From NCBI GenBank assembly GCA_021324885.1, contig JAJPIF010000002.1, forward strand, positions 124,001 through 188,000: a stretch of DNA of 64,000 nucleotides, in the 5' to 3' direction. A program made the translations under genes and the position numbers. The DNA comes from Pseudomonadota bacterium. Lineage in GTDB: Bacteria > Desulfobacterota > Binatia > Binatales > Binataceae. The notes under the pieces were generated by a model, which saw only the letters and a list, made by a program, of their open reading frames with translations, was not told the origin of the DNA and ran no database searches. Positions 44,404 through 60,628 of this stretch are shown here, one piece after another; the stretch's first letter is position 1, and each line of letters starts with the position of its first letter.

Positions 44404-44557
44404 AAAAGGCCGGCAGTCTCGCGGCCTCAAGCCTGCCGCCACCACAGGGCGGTACGCCGATCGAGCAGCCAGTTCAGCCGACCCTACCGAGGTTGGCAGG
44501 CGAGCGCCACCCGTAGTACCTCTGATGTTCGGGTTCCAAAGCCCCATGGAGGAAACG

Positions 44558-45412
44558 ATGAGCGACGACGCGATCTTATACGAAAAGGACGGCCCCGTGG
44601 CTCGGGTCATCTTGAATCGACCGGAGCGGCGCAATGCCCTGACCGATCCGATGTTCACCCAAATCGTCGAGGCCTACCACCGGGCTGAGCAGGATGACGA
44701 CGTCAAGGTAATCGAATTGATGGGCAAGGGCGACACTTTCTGCGTCGGCTTCGACCTGCGCGACCCCGACCTGTTCTATGAAGGCGCCGACGTCGGCGAA
44801 AACAACGTCCGCGACGGCATCTATGCGCTGCGCTTTCGCACCGAGGTCATGCGCGACATGATGTTCGTGCTCAAGCCAACCATCGCGCGCGTCCATCGCC
44901 ATTGTATTGGCGCGGGCCTGTTCCTGACCCTGGTAGCGGATTTCGCGATCGCCTCGGACAATACCGTCTTTGGCTTCCCCGAATCACGTTACGGCGACGC
45001 CGGCGGGGTCTGGTGCTTTCCCTTCGTGGTCATGCAATGCGGGCTTAAGCGCGCCCGCGAGCTGCTGATGACGGGGCGCAAGTTTACCGCCCAGGAAGCT
45101 GAGCGTTTTAACTTCATCAACCATGCGGTGCCGATGGAAAAGCTGGACGACGAAGTGGGCGAGCTGATCCACGCCCTGTGCAGCCTGCCGCGCGACAGCC
45201 TGGCCTTCGCCAAATCCTTCCAGCACGAAATCTATGGCACGCTCGGCATACCAAGCTTCTTTTTGCCCCATTACACGATTCATCCGCTGGCCCTGCATGT
45301 GAAACGCAAAGCCGACGAATTTGATTTTCGCGAAACCATCCGCGAAAAAGGGCTGCGCGGCGGAATCGAGGAGCGCAACAGACGCTTTGCGGGGAAATAC
45401 TGGAACTGGTAA
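44558..45412 (+). CDS. Enoyl-CoA hydratase/isomerase family protein
   Basis: 284 residues of the crotonase fold. DTFCVGFDLRDPD is the region of the first oxyanion strand, IARVHRHCIGAGLFLTLVAD the second, with FGFPESRYGDAGG following. Members hydrate enoyl-CoA or perform related steps on CoA esters. The ATG at 44558 was chosen because GGAGG stands five bases before it; an upstream in-frame ATG at 44525 lacks one. First gene of a rightward operon with two acyl-CoA dehydrogenases 13 bases downstream, so a role after or before their dehydrogenation is likely. The exact substrate is not known. Confidence 0.85.
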   Translation: MSDDAILYEKDGPVARVILNRPERRNALTDPMFTQIVEAYHRAEQDDDVKVIELMGKGDTFCVGFDLRDPDLFYEGADVGENNVRDGIYALRFRTEVMRDMMFVLKPTIARVHRHCIGAGLFLTLVADFAIASDNTVFGFPESRYGDAGGVWCFPFVVMQCGLKRARELLMTGRKFTAQEAERFNFINHAVPMEKLDDEVGELIHALCSLPRDSLAFAKSFQHEIYGTLGIPSFFLPHYTIHPLALHVKRKADEFDFRETIREKGLRGGIEERNRRFAGKYWNW

Positions 45413-45425
45413 CCGGAGGGGATCG

Positions 45426-46589
45426 GTGGATTTTTCGCTCACGCCCGAGCAGGAGGCGTTTCAAAAACAGGTCAGAGACTTCATCCGCCAACATCTGACC
45501 CCGGAGCTGCGCGAGGAGGTCGAACGCGAGCAGTACGCGATCGGTCCGTTGGGCAAGAATTTCGTCCGCCTGATGGGCCGCCAGGGATGGCTCGGGATCG
45601 GCTGGCCAAAGGAATATGGCGGTCAGGGACGCGGCGCGATCGACCAGTGGATTTTTCTGGAGGAGATGGCGGCCGAGAACCTGCCCACCGGCGGTCTGAC
45701 CCTCAATTCGGCCGGACCGACCCTGATGCGGGTCGGCTCGGAGCGGCAAAAGCGTGAGTATCTGCCGAAAATTCTGACCGGCGAGATCGAGTTCGCGATC
45801 GGCTACACCGAACCCAACGCCGGCTCCGATCTGGCTTCGCTCCAGACCCGGGCCGTGCGCGACGGCGACAGCTACGTCATCAACGGCCAGAAGATTTACA
45901 CCTCGGCGGCGCACCACTCCACGCATATCTGGCTGCTGGCGCGCACCGACCCGAAGCTGCCCAAACATCGCGGCATTTCCATCTTTATCGTACCGATCGA
46001 CACGCCCGGCGTAACCATTCGACCGCTGGAAACGATGGGCAGCGAGCGCAGCAACGAGGTGTTCTTCGAAGATGCGCGCGTTCCCGCCGCCAACCTGGTC
46101 GGTGAGGAGAATCGCGGATGGCAGTATGTCACGATGGCGCTGGATTTCGAGCGGCTGATGCCGCATGCGCGCATCCGCACCCATCTCGACAATCTGATCG
46201 ACTATGCCAGGAACACGGTGAAGGACGGCCGCCCGCTCAGCCAGCATTACCACGTGCGCATCGCGCTGGCGCGGCTGGCGGTCGAGGTCGAAGTGCTGCG
46301 GCTGTTCTCGATGCGCTGTGCGTGGATGATCGAGCGCGGGCAGGTGCCCAACGCCGAAGCGTCGGTGTTCAAGATTTACATGAGCGAACTCAATGAACAT
46401 ATCGCGAGGGCCGCACAAAATATCATGGGCGCCTATGCCGCCATTCGCGGCGAGGACCGGCTGGCGCCGGTCGGGGGCCGGCTGGAGAAGTTGTACCGCA
46501 GTTTCCCGCTCTACAAGTTTGCCGGCGGCACCAACGAGGTGATGCGCAACATTATCGCGCAGCGCGGACTCGGGATGCCGCGCGATTAA
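45426..46589 (+). CDS. Acyl-CoA dehydrogenase (likely catalytic subunit of a pair)
   Basis: 387 residues beginning VDFSLTPEQEAFQKQVRDFI from a GTG at 45426, with GGAGG just upstream. FAIGYTEPNAGSDLASLQTR is the FAD/substrate signature, and the C-terminus FAGGTNEVMRNIIAQRGLG carries the conserved Glu-containing segment. It introduces a double bond into an acyl-CoA, passing electrons to ETF. The adjacent gene encodes a second, different family member lacking this C-terminal motif, as in heteromeric steroid-type dehydrogenases. Substrate unknown but probably branched or cyclic. Confidence 0.88.
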   Translation: MDFSLTPEQEAFQKQVRDFIRQHLTPELREEVEREQYAIGPLGKNFVRLMGRQGWLGIGWPKEYGGQGRGAIDQWIFLEEMAAENLPTGGLTLNSAGPTLMRVGSERQKREYLPKILTGEIEFAIGYTEPNAGSDLASLQTRAVRDGDSYVINGQKIYTSAAHHSTHIWLLARTDPKLPKHRGISIFIVPIDTPGVTIRPLETMGSERSNEVFFEDARVPAANLVGEENRGWQYVTMALDFERLMPHARIRTHLDNLIDYARNTVKDGRPLSQHYHVRIALARLAVEVEVLRLFSMRCAWMIERGQVPNAEASVFKIYMSELNEHIARAAQNIMGAYAAIRGEDRLAPVGGRLEKLYRSFPLYKFAGGTNEVMRNIIAQRGLGMPRD

Positions 46590-46636
46590 GCCTTTTGGCC
46601 AAAATGAGGTCGTCGAACTGAATTGGAGAGCAAGAC

Positions 46637-47755
46637 GTGATCGATCTGGGATGGAGTCAAGCGCAGGAGATGCTGCGCGAAAGCGCGCGCGGCTTTCTGG
46701 CCAAGGAAGCACCCAAAAGTGTCGTCCGGCAAATCGAAGCTGACCCGCTCGGCTATTCGCCCGCGCTGTGGCGCAAGATGGCTGACCTGGGCTGGCTCGC
46801 CATGCCGTTTCCGGAAAGCGCCGGCGGCGTCGGCGGCAGCCTGATCGACGCCGGATTGCTGGCCGAAGAACTGGGCCGCGCCTGCCTTCCCTGCCCCTAC
46901 ATCCATACGGTCGCGGCCGGCCTGACGCTGCTCGAAGGGGGAAGAACCGACCTGGTGGCCAAAATCGTCGCCGGCGATCTGGTGGTCGTTCCCGCCTTTA
47001 CCGAAGTCGACCCGCGCCCGATTCCAAAGGCCTTGAAGCTCGCGATCGTTCCACAAGGCGCAGGCTATCGGCTCACCGGACTCAAGCGCTTCGTCGAATA
47101 CGGCCATGCCGCCAATCTGCTGCTTTGCTCGGGCCGCGTGAACCAATCCGAAGCGGAAGAAGGCGCCACGCTGATGCTGGTCGGCGGCGACACCCGCGGG
47201 CTGGCACGGCGCACCCTCGCCAGCACCGGCGGCGATCCGGTGGCCGAACTGGAGTTCCAGGATGTGCAAACCGACGCCGCCAGTCTGGTCGGAGATGCGG
47301 GACGCGGATGGCCAATGATTCACCGGACCATCAACCGATTCCTGGCCCTGCGCGCGGCGGAAATGGCGGGTGGTACGCGTCGCGTTTTGGAAATGACGGT
47401 GGACTACACCAAAATGCGCGTCCAGTTCGGACGCACGCTGGCCTCGTTCCAGGCCGTTCAGCATATTTGTGCCGACATGGCGATCATGGCCGACGGCGCC
47501 GAACTGGCCGCGCGTCAAGCCGTTTGGGCGGTGGACCGCAACCCGTCCAGCGATTATGAAGTCAGCGCCGCCAAGGCGTTCGCCGCTCAGGCCTACAGCA
47601 TGGCGACGATCAACGCGGTCCAGCTCCATGGGGGCATCGGCTACATGCAGGAGTACGACCTTCAATTCTATTACCGCCGCGCCCGCTCCGAAGAGGTCCT
47701 GATGGGGACGATCGAGGATCACCTGGAGAGGGTGGCAACGGCAATCGGTCTGTAA
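46637..47755 (+). CDS. Acyl-CoA dehydrogenase (likely partner subunit)
   Basis: 372 residues, GTG start at 46637 with GGAGAG upstream. MADLGWLAMPFPESAGGVGG, AEELGRACLPCPYIHTVAAG and the C-terminal region LHGGIGYMQEYDLQFYYRRA place it in the acyl-CoA dehydrogenase family. The usual glutamate-bearing GGTNE segment is replaced at the end by EEVLMGTIEDHLERVATAI, as in the non-catalytic or complementary subunit of alpha2-beta2 enzymes. It lies 47 bases after the first dehydrogenase, same strand. The pairing is inference. Confidence 0.85.
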   Translation: MIDLGWSQAQEMLRESARGFLAKEAPKSVVRQIEADPLGYSPALWRKMADLGWLAMPFPESAGGVGGSLIDAGLLAEELGRACLPCPYIHTVAAGLTLLEGGRTDLVAKIVAGDLVVVPAFTEVDPRPIPKALKLAIVPQGAGYRLTGLKRFVEYGHAANLLLCSGRVNQSEAEEGATLMLVGGDTRGLARRTLASTGGDPVAELEFQDVQTDAASLVGDAGRGWPMIHRTINRFLALRAAEMAGGTRRVLEMTVDYTKMRVQFGRTLASFQAVQHICADMAIMADGAELAARQAVWAVDRNPSSDYEVSAAKAFAAQAYSMATINAVQLHGGIGYMQEYDLQFYYRRARSEEVLMGTIEDHLERVATAIGL

Positions 47756-47840
47756 TCGCGCAGGACAGCGCCGCGCGCTGACAGCTTGCTCCCTTTCCGC
47801 CAGGCATTTCCAGCGGACTTTGATCGAGGACTGAGAACAG

Positions 47841-49556
47841 GTGGCTGAGATAATCATTGAAAGAAACGTGCCGGTGCCGATGCGCGACGGCGTGGTGCTG
47901 CGCGCCGACGTCTATCGTCAAAACGGCGCGGGACGGCGTCCGGTGCTGCTCGAACGCACGCCGTACAGCAAAACGCTCCCTCGCATGGTGCTGGACACGA
48001 TCCATGTGCTGAAGGCGTCGGAGGCGGGGTATGCCGTAGTGATCCAGGACTGCCGCGGGCGCTTCGATTCCGACGGCGAGTTCGTACCGTTCCTGTGCGA
48101 CATCAACGACGGCTACGACACGGTGGAATGGTGCGCCAATCAATCGTGGTCCAATGGCCGGATCGGAATGTTCGGCACCTCCTATGTCGGCGCCACGCAA
48201 TTGCTGGCCGCGATTGCCGCGCCGCCGCATCTGGCCGCGATTTGCCCGGTGGTCAGCGGGGCTGATTTTCACAACGGATGGATTTACGAAGGCGGCGCGT
48301 TCAGGCTCGCCTTCGTCACCGCGTGGGCCGCGCAATTTCTCGCCGCCCCCAATATCGACAGGCTGCCGCTGCCGCCTGCCCGGCGCGAAAGCGAACGGCA
48401 GAACCTGCTTGACAGCATCGAGCGCCTGCGCCGCACGGTGTCACATTGGCCGCTGTCCGAACTGCCGCTGTTCAAGCTCGAAGGGCTGGCACCCTATTTT
48501 TATGAATGGCTGGCGCATCCGGATTACGACGACTACTGGCGGCGCGTCGATATCACCGCCCATCATGACCGCGTCACCGTTCCAGGCTTGCACATGGGTG
48601 GATGGTACGATTTGTTCGTGGCGGGAGCGCTGCACAATTTCACCGGCATGCGCCGCCGCGCCGCCACGCCGCACGCGCGCGACGGCCAACGCCTGCTGTT
48701 CGGGCCGTGGGTGCACGGCTCCCTGCAATCGCAGCTCTCGCCCATTGGCGAGCGCGACTACGGATGGCGCTCGCTGGTGCCGCTGAGCGAGACCAAGATC
48801 GGATGGTTCGATCACTGGCTGCGCGATGCGGACAACTGGGTGGTCTCGGAGGCGCCTGTGCGCGTCTATGTGCTGAACCGCGGATGGCGTCATGAGCAGC
48901 AATGGCCGCTGGAAGGCACGCAGTGGACGCGCTACTACCTGCACAGCGGCGGACGTGCCAACTCGCTCAATGGCGACGGGCGCCTCAGCCGCGATACGCC
49001 GGGCTCGCAGCCGCCCGATATCATGCTTTACAATCCGCTCAATCCGACTCCGACGGTTGGCGTCGGCGGCATCTACGATCAACGCCCGGTCGAAGCGCGC
49101 TCCGAGGTGCTGGTCTATTCGACGCCGCCGCTCAGCGAGGCGATCGAAGTTACAGGTCCGGTCAAAGTGGTGCTCTATGCTTCCAGTTCAGCACCCGATA
49201 CGGACTTCACCGCCAAGCTGGTCGATGTCGCTCCCAACGGCTATGCGGCCAATCTGTGCGACGGGCTGATTCGGGCGCGCTACCGCAATTCGCCGGCGCG
49301 ACCCGAACTGATGCAGCCGGGTGAGGTTTATGAATTCACCATCGATCTTAACGGAACCGGCAACGTATTTATGGCCGGCCATCAGATCCGGTTGGAGATT
49401 TCCAGCAGCAATTTTCCCAAGTTCGACCGCAATCCCAACACCGGAGAACCCGCGGCGATGGCGCGGCACACCAAGCCGGCCGTGCAAACCATTTTTCATG
49501 ACTCGCAGCATGCTTCCCACGTCGTGCTGCCGGTAATTCCGGCGAAAGGCCGTTGA
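47841..49556 (+). CDS. CocE/NonD-family alpha/beta hydrolase
   Basis: 571 residues. PVPMRDGVVLRADVYRQNG at the start, VIQDCRGRFDSDGEFVPF and the nucleophile motif GMFGTSYVGATQ (Ser in G-x-S-Y-x-G) are characteristic of the CocE/NonD group; GPWVHGS supplies a possible catalytic His region. The C-terminal third is a jelly-roll-like domain (GHQIRLEISSSNFPKFDRN). Known members hydrolyse cocaine-type esters, macrolactones or act as X-Pro aminopeptidases. No signal peptide. GTG start at 47841, 85 bases after the dehydrogenase. It may open an ester or lactone for the pathway here. Confidence 0.87.
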   Translation: MAEIIIERNVPVPMRDGVVLRADVYRQNGAGRRPVLLERTPYSKTLPRMVLDTIHVLKASEAGYAVVIQDCRGRFDSDGEFVPFLCDINDGYDTVEWCANQSWSNGRIGMFGTSYVGATQLLAAIAAPPHLAAICPVVSGADFHNGWIYEGGAFRLAFVTAWAAQFLAAPNIDRLPLPPARRESERQNLLDSIERLRRTVSHWPLSELPLFKLEGLAPYFYEWLAHPDYDDYWRRVDITAHHDRVTVPGLHMGGWYDLFVAGALHNFTGMRRRAATPHARDGQRLLFGPWVHGSLQSQLSPIGERDYGWRSLVPLSETKIGWFDHWLRDADNWVVSEAPVRVYVLNRGWRHEQQWPLEGTQWTRYYLHSGGRANSLNGDGRLSRDTPGSQPPDIMLYNPLNPTPTVGVGGIYDQRPVEARSEVLVYSTPPLSEAIEVTGPVKVVLYASSSAPDTDFTAKLVDVAPNGYAANLCDGLIRARYRNSPARPELMQPGEVYEFTIDLNGTGNVFMAGHQIRLEISSSNFPKFDRNPNTGEPAAMARHTKPAVQTIFHDSQHASHVVLPVIPAKGR

Positions 49557-49626
49557 TCATTCGCGCCCGATGTGGACAAGAGGACAGTCATTCCGGCACA
49601 AGGGCCGGCGCTACAGGAGGTAGGCA

Positions 49627-50505
49627 ATGGCGCACGAATACAAACTGGTTGACCCGTTTATCGGGCTTCCACCCAAGGCTCCCAATCCCTCGCAGGACCC
49701 CAACATCGCGCGCTGGTTTCGCAACTCCAAGGCGCTGATGGAAGGAGCGACGGTCGAGCAGATGATCGCCGACATGGACGAAACCTCGATCGAGGCGGCG
49801 ATCCTTACCGCCACCGGGCAACCCGAGCTGCCTACCGGTCCCTACTCGGTCGGCCAGAGGATCAGCGATGAAACCTTCAATGCCGCCTGCAAGGAAGTGG
49901 CGGACATTATCAAGCGCTATCCGGGGCGGCTTTACGGATGCGCCGCGATCGATCCGACCGGGATGATGCGCGCGGTACGGCAGGTCGAGCGCGCCTACAA
50001 GGAATACGGTTTTCGTTCGATCTGGATGATGCCGGCGCTGGTCGGGCTGCCAGCCAATCACGCCTGCTACTTTCCGGTCTATGCTAAATGCGCCGAATTA
50101 GGCATCACGGTGAAGATTAACTGCGGCGTCCCCGGCCCGCTGCGCCAGGCCCGTCTGCAACAACCGATGAACCTCGACGAGGTGCTGATCGCATTTCCCG
50201 AACTGACCGTGGTGGGCACTCACGTAGGCCATCCGTGGCATCTGGAAACGGTTGCCCTGCTGCAGAAATTCCCCAACTTCTACATGATCACCTCGGGCTG
50301 GGCGCCCAAACACGTCCCTCAGGAGTTGTGGAATCTGGCCAACACCCGTGGCGCCAACAAAATCCTATGGTCCAGCGACTACCCGATCCTGCCGATGCAG
50401 CGCTGCTCCCAGGAAGGGTGGGCCGTCCCCCTCAAAGACGAAGTAAAACGGCGCTACCTGCGCGACAACGCCATCGAGGTGTTCAAACTAAACCTGTCCA
50501 AATAA
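49627..50505 (+). CDS. Amidohydrolase-2-family TIM-barrel protein lacking the N-terminal HxH motif
   Basis: 292 residues with the amidohydrolase-related (Amidohydro_2/ACMSD-like) body: FNAACKEVADIIKRYPGRLY, CAAIDPTGMMRAVRQVERAY, LTVVGTHVGHPWHLETVALL and ILWSSDYPILPMQRCSQEG, where the histidines and the late Asp fit metal/catalytic positions. At the N-terminus, where DxHxH normally binds zinc, the sequence is KLVDPFIGLPPK, with no histidine. It may bind metal differently or be a catalytically altered hydrolase/decarboxylase. AGGAGG precedes the ATG by six bases. Fifth gene of the rightward operon, 70 bases after the CocE-type gene. Confidence 0.8.
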   Translation: MAHEYKLVDPFIGLPPKAPNPSQDPNIARWFRNSKALMEGATVEQMIADMDETSIEAAILTATGQPELPTGPYSVGQRISDETFNAACKEVADIIKRYPGRLYGCAAIDPTGMMRAVRQVERAYKEYGFRSIWMMPALVGLPANHACYFPVYAKCAELGITVKINCGVPGPLRQARLQQPMNLDEVLIAFPELTVVGTHVGHPWHLETVALLQKFPNFYMITSGWAPKHVPQELWNLANTRGANKILWSSDYPILPMQRCSQEGWAVPLKDEVKRRYLRDNAIEVFKLNLSK

Positions 50506-50697: not shown

Positions 50698-51471
50698 TCA
50701 GGCTTTGGGTCTGGTTGCCACCCAATGCTCGCCGGCCGCCAGACCTTCCAATGCCAGTCCGAGACTCAGATTATCGAGCATCAAGCGCTTCAGATGCATG
50801 GTCAGCGCCTGGCGGGCATAACGCACCGCCAGCGGCGGCTTTTCCGTGATCTGGCGAGCCAGTTCCCAGGCTCGCGGCATCAGTTTGTCTCGCGCCATCA
50901 CTTCCGCGACCAGCCCCATGTCCAGGGCCTGGCGCGCGGAGATTTTCTGCCCGGTCAGCAGGAAATAGCGCCCGCGATTGAATCCCATCAGCAGCGGGAA
51001 GACGACGTGAACGCCGTCGCCGGGAACCAGTCCGCCGGGGAAATGGGGCAGGTCCTGGAACTCCGCGTTGTCCGACGCGATCACGACATCGCACAGCAGC
51101 GCCAGTTCGGCATGGATCAGCGCGGGACCGTTGACCGCAGCGATCATCGGCACCTCGATATCCAGATGGTTCATCAGCAGATGCTTGCCATCGGAAAAGG
51201 TGTGGTCCCACGCGCCGGGCGGGATCCTGGTGGTATCGCCGCCCCACAGCGCGTCCGCGATGAATTCGTCTCCGGTACCGGTGAGAATCACGGCCTTGTT
51301 GTCGCGGTCGCGAGCGATATCGCCGAAGGCGTAGGACAGTTCCTCGTGCGGGCGCATCCCCCATTTAAGCGGTCCGCCCTTGCTGTGCAGCGTCACTTGC
51401 AGGATGCCATCGGTGCGCTCCATTTTGATGAATTTGTACTTGTTCGCGTATTCTTCCAACCTGATCGCCAT
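50698..51471 (-). CDS. Crotonase-fold beta-diketone hydrolase, 6-oxocamphor hydrolase-like
   Basis: 257 residues. From memory of Rhodococcus 6-oxocamphor hydrolase, the residues reported important there (Trp40, His122, His145, Asp154, Glu244) have counterparts here at W37, H120, H143 (DLPHFPGG), D152 (VPGDG) and E242 (LALEGL), with nearly constant offset, and stretches such as [11 protein letters not shown] and PRAWELAR agree. That enzyme cleaves a cyclic beta-diketone by a retro-Claisen reaction without CoA. The GGAGG before the ATG at 51471 fixes the start; an in-frame extension to 51597 has none. It is divergent from the luciferase-like oxidoreductase gene beside it. Otherwise it would simply be an enoyl-CoA hydratase family protein. 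Confidence 0.75.
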
Positions 51472-51620
51472 CGTTGTTCTCCTCCGGGTGATTGGTTCGA
51501 GGCCGAGTATACAAAAACTTGCGCGCCATCGTTCCAGTTGGGCGGGGCGGCGCCGATTGACAAATGCGGGCAAGACATGGCGGTATGCAATACACACTCC
51601 AGCGAGCGCGAGGCTAGAAA

Positions 51621-52511
51621 ATGAAAGTTGGCATGGGTTCGATGGGACTGGGTCCCTTCAGCGATCCGGATATCATGGCTCACGTGGCGCGCACCGCCGA
51701 GCGATGCGGCTTCGAATCGCTATGGGCTCCGGATCATTCGGCGGTTCCCGACGCGCATCAGACCAAATGCCCCTATACTCCGGACGGCGAAATACCCGGC
51801 GGCCCAGATGCTCCGCTGGTCGAACCAATCACGGCATTGTCATTCGTCGCCGGGTTGACCTCGAAGATCAGGCTGGGCACCGGCGTCATGATCCTGCCCC
51901 AGCGCCATCCGTTCTATGTGGCCAAGGAGGTTGCCACCCTGGATCTGATATCCAAGGGTCGCGCGCTGCTGGGAATCGGCAGCGGTTGGTGCGCGGAGGA
52001 ATTCGCCGCTCTCGGCCTGGATTTCCATCAGCGCGGCAAACGCACCGACGAGGCGATGCAGGCCTTGCGCGTGCTGTGGCGCGAGGATCCCTCGACCTTC
52101 AAGGGCACCCATTTCAATTTCGAGCGCATCCGCAGCTTTCCCAAACCGGTGCAGCGCGGCGGCGTGCCGATCCTGGTCGGCGGCCATTCGCGGGCCGCGG
52201 CGCGCCGCGCGGCCCGCTACGGCGACGGCTTCTATCCGCTCACCCCAATCGTCGATACCGATATTGCCAAAATCGATTTTTTGAAATCGATGAAGGGGCT
52301 TCTCGCGATGTTCAAGGAGGAATGCGATAAGGCCGGGCGCAAGTACGACGGTTTCGATATCACCACGGGCGCCGGCCCCGACCTCGATTTCATCAAACGC
52401 CTGGAGGACCTCGGAGTCACGCGCGTGTTCCTGAGTTCAGCCGCTACCGATCGCGACGGCATCACCCGTTCGCTCGAGCAAATCGGCAACCAGATTATCG
52501 CGCGGCTGTAA
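51621..52511 (+). CDS. Luciferase-like (LLM) F420/FMN-dependent oxidoreductase
   Basis: 296 residues of the bacterial-luciferase TIM barrel: [40 protein letters not shown] and [20 protein letters not shown] are signature stretches, and [20 protein letters not shown] closes the core. The pattern is close to the TIGR03619-type F420-dependent group; FMN-dependent monooxygenase activity is the main alternative. It reads away from the 6-oxocamphor-hydrolase-like gene, 149 bases apart. Its stop abuts that of the VanZ-like gene with no spacer. Substrate unknown. Confidence 0.82.
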
Positions 52512-57255: not shown

Positions 57256-57957
57256 CTAGCCCACCGACTTCAGCCATTCGTCGAACCACTTGCGCGCCTG
57301 GACCTCCAGCCGCGACGCGTAAAGCGCGGTGTCGGCGCGCAACTTCGTCACTGATATCTGGGACGCCGCCAGTTCGCAGGCGTGGCCGATGAACCACTGC
57401 TCCAGGCGCGCCGCGGCCGCTTCCGGATGGAATTGGAAGCCGACCGCGTTGGCGCCCCATGAAAAGGCCTGGTTGGGGCAAATCGCCGTCGAGGCGAGCA
57501 GGGTCGCGCCAGGCGGCAGGTCGAAAGTGTCGCCGTGCCAGTGAAGTACGGCTGTGTTGTCCTGGCCCAGATGGCGCAACGCGGACTCGCTTCCCGCCGC
57601 GCTCAGCGTGATCGGCGCCCATCCGATCTCTTTGACTCCCGATGGATAGACCCGCGCGCCGAGCACACGGGCCATCAGCTGCGCGCCCAGGCAGATTCCC
57701 ACCGTGGGTCGATTCGCCCTCAGGCGGCCTTCCAACAACCTGAGTTCGTCCTTCAGCGCCGGATAAATGTCGTCTTCGTACGCGCCAATCGGCCCGCCCA
57801 GCACGAACAGCAAATCCGTCGTCGCTGGATCAATCGCCCCGATATCGTCAACCCCGCAGTCCAGATATCGGATAGCGTGTCCGGTTTGTGTCAGAACCGG
57901 TTCGAGGCTGCCGAGATCCTCGAAATGCACATGGCGGATCGCAACTGCGGTCTTCAT
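57256..57957 (-). CDS. Class I glutamine amidotransferase
   Basis: 233 residues from the ATG at 57957. TVGICLGAQLMARVLGARVY carries the nucleophile Cys, and GFQFHPEAAA the His-x-Glu of the triad; LLFVLGGPIGAYEDDIYPAL is the oxyanion strand. Related proteins are annotated as GMP-synthase-like glutamine amidotransferases and may release ammonia for an unknown partner or hydrolyse gamma-glutamyl compounds. Convergent with nuoD across 31 bases and divergent from the CoA-transferase gene. An in-frame extension to 58077 adds no family sequence. Confidence 0.83.
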   Translation of the reverse strand: MKTAVAIRHVHFEDLGSLEPVLTQTGHAIRYLDCGVDDIGAIDPATTDLLFVLGGPIGAYEDDIYPALKDELRLLEGRLRANRPTVGICLGAQLMARVLGARVYPSGVKEIGWAPITLSAAGSESALRHLGQDNTAVLHWHGDTFDLPPGATLLASTAICPNQAFSWGANAVGFQFHPEAAAARLEQWFIGHACELAASQISVTKLRADTALYASRLEVQARKWFDEWLKSVG

Positions 57958-58153
57958 CAGAGAATCATCAAACGGCCGGCCGGTACGGTTTGGCTCGCCA
58001 TCTGAATTATCTTTTTTAAAGCGCGGCTGCGGTGGCGCGCAAGCGCTCAAGGCAGGTCTGACTCGGCTGCGGCTCATGACTCGTTTTGATCCTTTGACAA
58101 ATCGCTCAGGCGGCGTAGATCATCTCGAACCGTGCTCATCGGGAGATCAAGCG

Positions 58154-60628
58154 ATGGCGCAGCAGGCGCGGATCGAGGCAAACGGCGATAACCCCAATAC
58201 CTCAGGACTACCGCTGGCCGGAGTTTCGGTGGTCGAATGCGGCCAGGGCGTATCGGCCGCTTTCGGCGGCAAGTTGATGGCGCTGCTGGGCGCTGACGTG
58301 ATCAAGGTCGAGCCGCCGGATGGCGATGGTACGCGGCGGCGCGGTCCGTTTGCCGGTGATATAGCCAACCCTGAAAAGAGCGGTCTGTTCCTTTACCTTA
58401 ATCACGGCAAGCGCGGTATTGCTTTGGATCTCGCCGATGATCGCGGACGCAAAACGCTGGATGATCTGCTGGAGCGGGCGGATATCCTAATCCACAACAT
58501 CCCAACACCGCAGCGCGATCGCTGCTCGATGCGGTCCGACATGATTGCAGCACGCCATCCGCACCTGGTGATCGCCGCAATCTCGCGCTTCGGCGATTGG
58601 GGCCCGCGCAGCCATTACAAGGCCTACGAACTCAACACCATCCATGCCAGCGGCTCGGCGATTCTCAATCCGATGTTGTGCGAAAATCCTGAACTGCCGC
58701 CGCTTAAGTACTTCGGCGCGCAAGCCGAGTTCCAGTCCGGTATTCACGCCGCGATGACCGCGCTGGCCGCGTACATCTATCGCGAGAAGTCCGGCGCCGG
58801 ACAGGCGATCGAAGTCTCCGAACAGGAATGCATGGCCACGATGCTCGACCTGAGCCTGGTCTGGTACACCTACCAGAATATGCAGACTTCGCGGCTGGGC
58901 TTCGCCGTAATCGGACCCGGCGGGGCGCATCGATGCGCTGACGGTCTGGTCCAGATTGTCTGCGTGGAGGAAACGCAGTGGCGCCGGCTCGTCGAACTCA
59001 TGGGCAATCCGCAATGGGCCGGCGAGGAGATTTTTAAAGACCGCACCGCGCGCGGCAAAAATATCGACGCGCTCACGGTTCTGATCGAGGAGTGGACGCG
59101 ATCGCGCACGGTCGATGAACTGGTCGAACAGATGCAGGCGCGGCGGATTCCGGCCGCTCCGATCAACAACCCCAGCCGCATTTACGCCGATCCCCATCTG
59201 AAAGCGCGCGAGTTCTTCGTGCCCTTGCCGTGCCGTGAGGCAGGCGAGCCGACAATCCTTGCGCCGGGCGCGCCGTTTAAGTCCACGGCGATGCGATGGT
59301 CGTTTGGTGGTGCGGCGCCGCGGCTGGCCGAGCACACGGCGGAAATCATGCGCGAGTTGGCGGCGCGCCCGGTTCGGAGCAATCCGCGGCCGCCGACTGA
59401 TCGCCAGGCGCGGCAATTCGGGCCGCTGCACGGCATCAGGGTGCTCGATTTCTGCTGGGTGTGGGCGGGACCGTTCTGCACCTCGCAACTCGCCCGCCTT
59501 GGGGCGGAAGTGATTCGGGTCGAAAGCGCGCGCCATCCCTGCGTCGGCCGCCTGTTCGTTCCGCAGGCCGACGGCCAGGCGGGACTCAACCGCGGCGGCA
59601 GTTTCAACGAGAAGAATCACAACAAGCTGAGCGTCCAGATCGATCTGGAGAAGCCTGAGGGCGTCGCGCTGGTGCATGAACTGGCGCGCCATTGCGATAT
59701 CGCCGCGGAGAATTTTGCGGCGGGGGTCATCGATCGGCTTGGCGTTGGATACCATAGCCTGCGCGCCGTAAAACCCGACCTGATCATGATTTCGCTGGCC
59801 GGCTACGGCCAGAGCGGACCATTTCGCAATTATGTCAGCTACGGCCCGATTATGGCGGCCCATTGCGGATTGCAGACGCTGACCACCTATCCCGGCGACG
59901 GTCCGCGCAATCCGGGAATCAGCTACGGAGATCCGGTGGTGGGAATTTTCGGCGCATGGCTGCTCAATGCCGCCCTGATCCATCGGGCCCGCACCGGCCA
60001 GGGACAATATATAGACTTATCCAATCTGGAAGCGCTGGAAATGCTGATGCCCGAGGCGCTGCTGGAATTCGCGATCAACGGGCGCGACCCGCAACCGATG
60101 GGCAATCACGACCCGCTGATGGCGCCGCACAACTGCTATAAGACGTTGGGCGATCCGGAGCATTGGGTCACTATCGCGGTCGGCAGCGAGCGGGAATGGT
60201 GCGCGCTGTGCGATGCGATCGGCCAGCCGTCTTTAGCCAATGATTCACGCTTCGCCACCGCCGCGGCGCGCAAGCGTAACGAGGATGAACTGGATCGAAT
60301 AATCAGCGCCTGGACCTCCAACCGCGACCGCTGGCAAATCACCGAGCTGCTGCAACGCGCGGGCGTCGCCGCGATACCGACCTTTACCAATATCGACATC
60401 GTGAACGATCCGCACCTGCGCGAGCGCGGCTTCCTGGTCGATCTCGACCATCCCGAAGTCGGCGTCCGCACCTACGCCGGCGTGCCCTGGACGATGTCGC
60501 TGACACCGTGCAAGTTGCGCCGCGTCTCGCCCTGCCTGGGCCAGGACACCGACGACGTCCTGCAGCGGCTGCTTGGCTATTCGCCCCAACGGATCGCCGA
60601 GTTACGCGCAGCGGAAATTCTCGCCTGA
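58154..60628 (+). CDS. Double-domain CaiB/BaiF (class III) CoA transferase
   Basis: 824 residues made of two complete class III CoA-transferase domains in tandem: about 20-400 (VVECGQGVSAAFGGKLMALL, VIKVEPPDGDGTRRRG) and about 425-820 (VLDFCWVWAGPFCTSQLARL, GAEVIRVESARHP, NEKNHNKLSVQIDLEKPEG). Normal members are about 400 residues and form interlocked dimers, so this may be a dimer fused in one chain. Where the catalytic acid is expected after GQ-x-[ID]-x-S, both halves have Glu (SEQEC and SNLEA). GGGAG eight bases upstream supports the ATG at 58154. Acceptor acid unknown. Confidence 0.85.
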   Translation: MAQQARIEANGDNPNTSGLPLAGVSVVECGQGVSAAFGGKLMALLGADVIKVEPPDGDGTRRRGPFAGDIANPEKSGLFLYLNHGKRGIALDLADDRGRKTLDDLLERADILIHNIPTPQRDRCSMRSDMIAARHPHLVIAAISRFGDWGPRSHYKAYELNTIHASGSAILNPMLCENPELPPLKYFGAQAEFQSGIHAAMTALAAYIYREKSGAGQAIEVSEQECMATMLDLSLVWYTYQNMQTSRLGFAVIGPGGAHRCADGLVQIVCVEETQWRRLVELMGNPQWAGEEIFKDRTARGKNIDALTVLIEEWTRSRTVDELVEQMQARRIPAAPINNPSRIYADPHLKAREFFVPLPCREAGEPTILAPGAPFKSTAMRWSFGGAAPRLAEHTAEIMRELAARPVRSNPRPPTDRQARQFGPLHGIRVLDFCWVWAGPFCTSQLARLGAEVIRVESARHPCVGRLFVPQADGQAGLNRGGSFNEKNHNKLSVQIDLEKPEGVALVHELARHCDIAAENFAAGVIDRLGVGYHSLRAVKPDLIMISLAGYGQSGPFRNYVSYGPIMAAHCGLQTLTTYPGDGPRNPGISYGDPVVGIFGAWLLNAALIHRARTGQGQYIDLSNLEALEMLMPEALLEFAINGRDPQPMGNHDPLMAPHNCYKTLGDPEHWVTIAVGSEREWCALCDAIGQPSLANDSRFATAAARKRNEDELDRIISAWTSNRDRWQITELLQRAGVAAIPTFTNIDIVNDPHLRERGFLVDLDHPEVGVRTYAGVPWTMSLTPCKLRRVSPCLGQDTDDVLQRLLGYSPQRIAELRAAEILA

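Follow-up and report, generated by a model that had tools for sequence, protein, structure and literature searches.

The closest described systems are 6-oxocamphor hydrolase (OCH) and the Anabaena beta-diketone hydrolase (ABDH, Alr4455), which we take to be the two characterised members of one family, both acting on cyclic substrates without CoA. The paper on ABDH describes the enzyme in its title as coenzyme-A-independent. The catalytic residues of ABDH are named as D153, H144, E243 and H43 in PMC3584854, which also puts forward EchA15-like crotonases as beta-diketone hydrolases. During steroid breakdown, the five-membered ring is opened by the crotonase EchA20 and the six-membered ring by IpdAB, after which a thiolase acts (PMC5380842). 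Expansions of luciferase-like (FMNO) genes have been described in SAR202, with up to 114 such genes (PMC6946804), and their products have been proposed to open rings by Baeyer-Villiger oxidation (PMC5395668). Neither diketone nor claisen is used in the main text of PMC5395668, and diketone is likewise missing from that of PMC6946804; the main text of the Binatota paper PMC8262859 contains none of the terms camphor, luciferase, flavin, alicyclic, diketone and cyclohexane. In the open-licence literature, no paper joined Binatota with luciferase-like enzymes, the records on 6-oxocamphor hydrolase gave a match on asymmetric catalysts only, and Binatota appeared in no title on diketone hydrolases.

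The locus described here lies in the window, which is the whole stretch of 64,000 nucleotides that was analysed. Its candidate hydrolase was found to be identical to OCH (1o8u, 1szo) at 132 of 243 aligned positions (54%) and to ABDH (2j5g, 2j5s) at 117 of 245 (48%). It shares with OCH all five residues considered below and the predicted fold, and with ABDH the equivalents of the His/Asp/Glu set and of H120. In contrast, Phe82 of OCH corresponds to Asp79 and no camphor pathway context was seen, and ABDH has a Phe at the position of Trp37. The EchA15-like crotonases (3q1t, 3qk8), of which there are six genes in the same genome, have His/Asp/Glu at 143/152/242 but no His at 120, and are approximately 25% identical to the candidate hydrolase. 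The likeness to the EchA20/IpdAB steroid systems lies in relatives of the gene, which adjoin IpdA-like CoA-transferase-fold and thiolase-like genes; however, the crotonase of that cassette is OCH-type, its beta subunit is nearer to glutaconate CoA-transferase than to the beta subunit of 6con, and the cassette is absent from the window locus. More than 100 luciferase-like genes are found in the one genome here, comparable to the SAR202 expansions, and OCH-family genes occur in SAR202 records, but the chemistry proposed there is the Baeyer-Villiger oxidation.

The hydrolase gene and its family

50698..51471, minus strand: OCH-type beta-diketone hydrolase, very probably, 257 aa, by sequence, tree and predicted fold

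The gene was found at the coordinates given by the first-pass annotation, where an ATG begins a frame that stays open for 257 codons up to the stop. An alternative GTG start lies 126 bases upstream of the ATG and would add 42 residues; the ATG was favoured because both congener proteins match from it. The protein was 92-94% identical to its two congener orthologues compared to 85-86% for the DNA, indicating that the frame is under selection.

In a search of the PDB, the protein matched OCH with E values of 1.1e-81 (1o8u) and 2.6e-80 (1szo, also OCH) and ABDH with 4e-74 (2j5g), and the first match after these was an enoyl-CoA hydratase at 3.3e-24; the likeness to OCH is well beyond chance. Within the PDB copy searched, OCH and ABDH were the sole family enzymes that stood out. 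A tree was built from 102 family genes together with OCH, ABDH and four of the genome's six EchA15-like crotonases. The family, OCH and ABDH formed one clade against the four crotonases (SH-aLRT 100), the exact placement of OCH and ABDH being unsure because of their long branches. The structure predicted from 32 family rows had a mean pLDDT of 90.2, and a model made from the single sequence was discarded (pLDDT 32.8). When the retained model was compared with known structures, it was closest to the OCH entry 1szo (Z 39.6, rmsd 1.4 over 249 residues). The OCH/ABDH entries ranked first (Z 39.6, 39.0, 37.9 and 37.8), the next crotonase entry had a Z of 31.6, and Foldseek concurred. On these findings the product very probably belongs to the known OCH/ABDH family, and sequence, tree and predicted fold all support the 6-oxocamphor-hydrolase-like family and catalytic residues that had been proposed from the letters of the DNA. 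It is one more member of a known enzyme family, and the interest lies in the recurrent gene context; what goes beyond the ordinary is the four copies in the genome, the distribution across Binatota and the gene neighbourhoods of relatives.

Conservation of the catalytic residues

Five residues, W37, H120, H143, D152 and E242, had been said to have counterparts in OCH, and all five did in the pairwise alignment (W37=W40, H120=H122, H143=H145, D152=D154, E242=E244), in which the catalytic His and Asp line up. Further equivalents were H42=H45, E122=E124 and H155=H157. Catalytic roles are assigned here after those of the OCH counterparts, and the entry 1szo is titled as the His122Ala mutant of OCH bound to its product. 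The numbering of ABDH in PMC3584854 and the chain positions of the alignment differed by a constant 10.

A total of 132 family ORFs, drawn from 136 loci and the window, were aligned, giving 106 distinct proteins. H120, E122, H143 and D152 were each present in 106/106, the invariance of D152 being partly ascertained because many loci were collected via a pattern containing VPGDG. Position 242 was Glu in 103 proteins and Gln in 3. Of the 104 proteins with a letter at position 37, 100 had Trp and 4 had Phe. As in ABDH, Phe replaces W37 in one paralog of the same genome.

All 38 crotonase hits in the genome were aligned at the same columns. His120, Glu122, His143, Asp152 and Glu242, together with Trp or Phe at 37, were found in four of them, namely the hydrolase of the window and its paralogs on contigs C20, C2 and C8 (68%, 64% and 49% identical to it, respectively). 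Another six (L005-L010), 33-37% identical to the hydrolase, had His/Asp/Glu at 143/152/242, lacked Trp at 37 and carried Gly at 120, which another alignment gave as Ala in two of them; one of these, L006, was searched and was closest to 3q1t and EchA15 entries. In the remaining 28, His143, Asp152 and Glu242 never occurred together. Because the six EchA15-like crotonases share His-Asp-Glu, the triad marks a wider group. Glu122 was also present in several ordinary hydratases of the genome, and His120 was the only examined column confined to the four OCH-type proteins among the 38 hits. Judging from their residues, L005-L010 are possible further diketone hydrolases.

Genes beside the hydrolase

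51472..51620, no strand: intergenic gap of 149 bases between two divergent genes; a CitE-like lyase gene lies here in both congeners
51621..52511, plus strand: luciferase-like oxidoreductase, TIGR03619 F420-dependent subfamily (253.8 bits, cut-off 166.9)
49627..50505, plus strand: Amidohydro_2 protein, convergent with the hydrolase and not adjoining it in congeners
47841..49556, plus strand: CocE/NonD family hydrolase, adjacency to the OCH-type gene not conserved
44525..47755, plus strand: crotonase-family protein and two acyl-CoA dehydrogenases, adjacency to the OCH-type gene not conserved

The luciferase-like oxidoreductase that the first-pass annotation had placed beside the hydrolase is real; it was kept in the three genus genomes examined, and such genes are moderately enriched across the family. 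In both congeners the orthologous gene (84 and 88% identical) was found on the same side of the hydrolase. In both congeners a CitE-like gene (malyl-CoA lyase type; L099:10483-11349 and the equivalent place in L100) separates the luciferase-like gene from that of the hydrolase; it is absent from this place in the window. Because the neighbour exceeds the F420 cut-off of TIGR03619, it need not be a monooxygenase. Its solved relatives included two F420-dependent enzymes, a hydroxymycolic acid dehydrogenase (E 1.8e-16) and an alcohol dehydrogenase (8.8e-11), but luciferase-like monooxygenase entries scored as well or better (2.1e-18). The F420 biosynthesis genes cofH (456 bits against a cut-off of 374.1) and cofD (298.1 against 257.45) were present in the genome. 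The neighbour may be an F420-dependent oxidoreductase for the compound on which the hydrolase acts.

On the other flank, a tblastn search (E 1e-10) of the approximately 20 kb surrounding the gene in each congener found none of the five products of the 44525-50505 run, and the run was rejected as part of the system because it is not conserved beside the gene. Only the luciferase-like neighbour is therefore supported as a partner. The Amidohydro_2 gene was also considered by itself and rejected, with a near/far ratio of 1.62 (p 0.16) and none beside the gene in congeners, and it is probably not part of the system. Within the run, the start of the first acyl-CoA dehydrogenase (listed ORF 45321) is uncertain because it overlaps the crotonase frame.

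Some other arrangements were observed. The C20-type paralog (L011; orthologs L104 and L105) was divergent from a run of Amidohydro_2, luciferase-like and short-chain dehydrogenase genes in 3/3 genus genomes. Short-chain dehydrogenases near family genes had a ratio of 1.59 (p 0.11) with genes taken as independent, and p values of 0.02, 0.06 and 0.27 when clustered at 70, 80 and 90%, respectively. Elsewhere in the window, a single open frame at 57767-60628 codes for 953 aa and includes two stretches of CoA-transferase family III.

A gene cassette in relatives

A CoA-transferase-fold gene and a luciferase-like gene both lay within 2 kb of each of nine family genes (L021, L022, L024, L027, L028, L030, L113, L115 and L117). 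A thiolase-like gene lay downstream on the same strand in 9/9, both CoA-transferase-fold subunits were present in 7/9, and a protein with a ChsH2-type OB-fold and zinc ribbon in 6/9. In this layout the OCH-type hydrolase, luciferase-like and thiolase-like genes are on one strand and the IpdAB-like CoA-transferase-fold genes are divergent. Seven of the nine loci, all but L022 and L028, were placed in genomes of Binataceae, and the surroundings of the other three OCH-type genes of the window's genome, like the window locus itself, were without the cassette. The neighbour genes were picked heuristically and some were missed, e.g., the luciferase-like gene in L019.

One alpha subunit protein of the cassette was searched and gave as best matches 6con chain A (E 1.3e-29) and 6co6 (1.2e-27), both labelled as CoA-transferase alpha subunits and corresponding to IpdA. 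One beta subunit protein matched glutaconate CoA-transferase 1poi best (5.8e-29) and then 6con chain B (5.1e-18). The Glu in the ESG stretch of 1poi chain B, presumably the transferase nucleophile, faces Leu in the cassette beta subunit, and 6con chain B is gapped there.

CoA-transferase-fold genes near family genes gave a ratio of 24.7 (p 5e-5) with genes as independent; the association was one cluster at 70 and 80%, which points to a single event with its descendants. Thiolase-like genes were not enriched in the nearest bin around the 103 family genes (1 near, 4 far and 13 at 2-4 kb). By analogy, the cassette resembles the steroid-ring arrangement with an OCH-type enzyme in the place of the crotonase. 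Two OCH-family genes in tandem or near tandem were observed at L042, L045, L102, L035 and L039.

Proposed reaction and alternative explanations

We consider it likely, with good confidence, that the gene product is a retro-Claisen hydrolase of the OCH/ABDH family that needs no coenzyme A, with the mechanism proposed here and a putative luciferase-like partnership included. The family, the residues, the predicted fold, the genus-wide adjacency and the F420 biosynthesis genes are shown, and from them we infer both the reaction and the partnership. By homology with OCH, His143-Asp152 and Glu242 would activate water, which would attack a carbonyl group of a 1,3-diketone that His120 and Trp37 hold in place. 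Cleavage of the C-C bond that links the two carbonyls and protonation of the enolate would then give a keto acid, with ring opening in the case of a cyclic substrate. The divergent luciferase-like enzyme probably shares the compound of the hydrolase; in the simplest case it would be an F420-dependent oxidoreductase making or consuming one ketone. Asp79, the equivalent of OCH Phe82, is in a variable stretch of low model confidence, and residues ~77-79, modelled with low confidence, are unlike OCH. Because of Asp79, 6-oxocamphor need not be the substrate. The cyclic beta-diketones suggested by the first-pass annotation are candidate substrates, and a terpenoid or camphor as substrate is a guess.

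Automatic annotation would label the protein an ordinary enoyl-CoA hydratase/isomerase. ECH_1 was the sole Pfam domain above its cut-off (103.5 bits compared to 27, an assignment at superfamily level only), and plasmid-borne relatives are annotated as enoyl-CoA hydratase/isomerase family. However, His143 occupies the position of the catalytic Glu of ordinary hydratases (rat Glu164), the hydratase GGG loop is replaced by IH, the NCBIfam hydratase models were all below their cut-off (best 124.7 of 354 bits), and the protein is in the clade of OCH and ABDH, which together make a hydratase very improbable. The same retro-Claisen chemistry might instead be carried out on an open-chain 1,3-diketone or on a ring-keto-acid CoA-thioester, in a BadI/EchA20-like manner, and not on a free cyclic diketone. 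OCH and ABDH, both characterised members, use cyclic compounds without CoA (as in the titles of their PDB entries and of the ABDH paper), and we regard this variant as unlikely, although the substrate-side stretch is unlike that of OCH, the CoA-transferase-fold and thiolase-like genes adjoining relatives imply CoA intermediates nearby, and a published title names a hydrolase of the open-chain diketone curcumin.

As to the partnership, the luciferase-like neighbour could be unrelated to the hydrolase, such genes being everywhere in the genome (at least 103 Bac_luciferase matches in 4.53 Mb). The divergent neighbour was nevertheless found in 3/3 genus genomes despite a differing other flank. Around 103 non-redundant family genes there were 33 luciferase-like genes at 0.4-2 kb, 15 at 2-4 kb and 39 at 4-9.6 kb, centre to centre, which is a 2.33-fold higher density near than far (p 0.0004 with genes treated as independent). 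When the genes were clustered at 70, 80 and 90% identity, p became 0.08, 0.07 and 0.04, respectively, and the enrichment is only suggestive once relatedness is allowed for. Partners outside the genus were mostly 23-37% identical to the luciferase-like protein of the window, and no single ortholog was found family-wide. The tree took 102 of the 103 genes (one of <180 residues was dropped), and 92 of them were labelled for adjacency, 10 being too near a contig end; a luciferase-like gene was adjacent in 29 of the 92, with at least 15 label changes on the tree. The distant partners and the repeated changes indicate repeated pairing in luciferase-rich genomes and not one inherited pair. With the abundance of such genes, the clustered p values and the lack of one ortholog on one side, and the genus-wide conservation, the density near the gene and the recurrent changes on the other, an unrelated neighbour is somewhat unlikely.

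Starting from the proposed CoA-independent hydrolase and its putative luciferase-like partner, a wider reading can be put forward very tentatively. Binatota and, via the same family, SAR202-type Chloroflexi might have an undescribed route for recalcitrant rings, in which an F420- or FMN-dependent luciferase-like enzyme would lead to a 1,3-diketone and an OCH-type enzyme would cleave its C-C bond with no need for CoA; in Binataceae the product would be finished by an IpdAB-like hydrolase together with a thiolase. We doubt that this will hold as a whole; if true, rings would be opened by hydrolysis instead of the Baeyer-Villiger oxidation suggested for the SAR202 luciferase-like expansions. The OCH-type family points to a concrete, testable candidate for ring opening in uncultured, luciferase-rich bacteria, and with cultured relatives in Roseiarcus, Variovorax and Bradyrhizobium genetics are feasible. 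The observation as a whole is judged to be sound, and the first-pass reading of the locus mostly so.

Distribution of the family

Family matches at E 1e-60 or better were found in 22 of 57 relatives, a count that includes the own genome. In the class as a whole, 40 of 145 genomes had such matches, counting the own genome and the congeners, and no genome had more than five. The lineage had been described as uncultured, and this held, yet relatives occur in cultured bacteria too. Among the best 80 of at least 428 confirmed matches, relatives were found in Roseiarcus fermentans (61%), Variovorax sp. (59%) and Bradyrhizobium sp. (57%), as well as in Chloroflexi, including SAR202 records, and Gammaproteobacteria. 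No relative was found in the viral contigs searched, and 28 plasmid records carried one, every one at <60% identity.

Besides its luciferase-like (PF00296) matches, the genome had at least 110 Amidohydro_2 (PF04909) matches. Across eight chosen Binatia genomes, the luciferase-like matches ranged from 74 to at least 103 and the Amidohydro_2 matches from 25 to at least 112.
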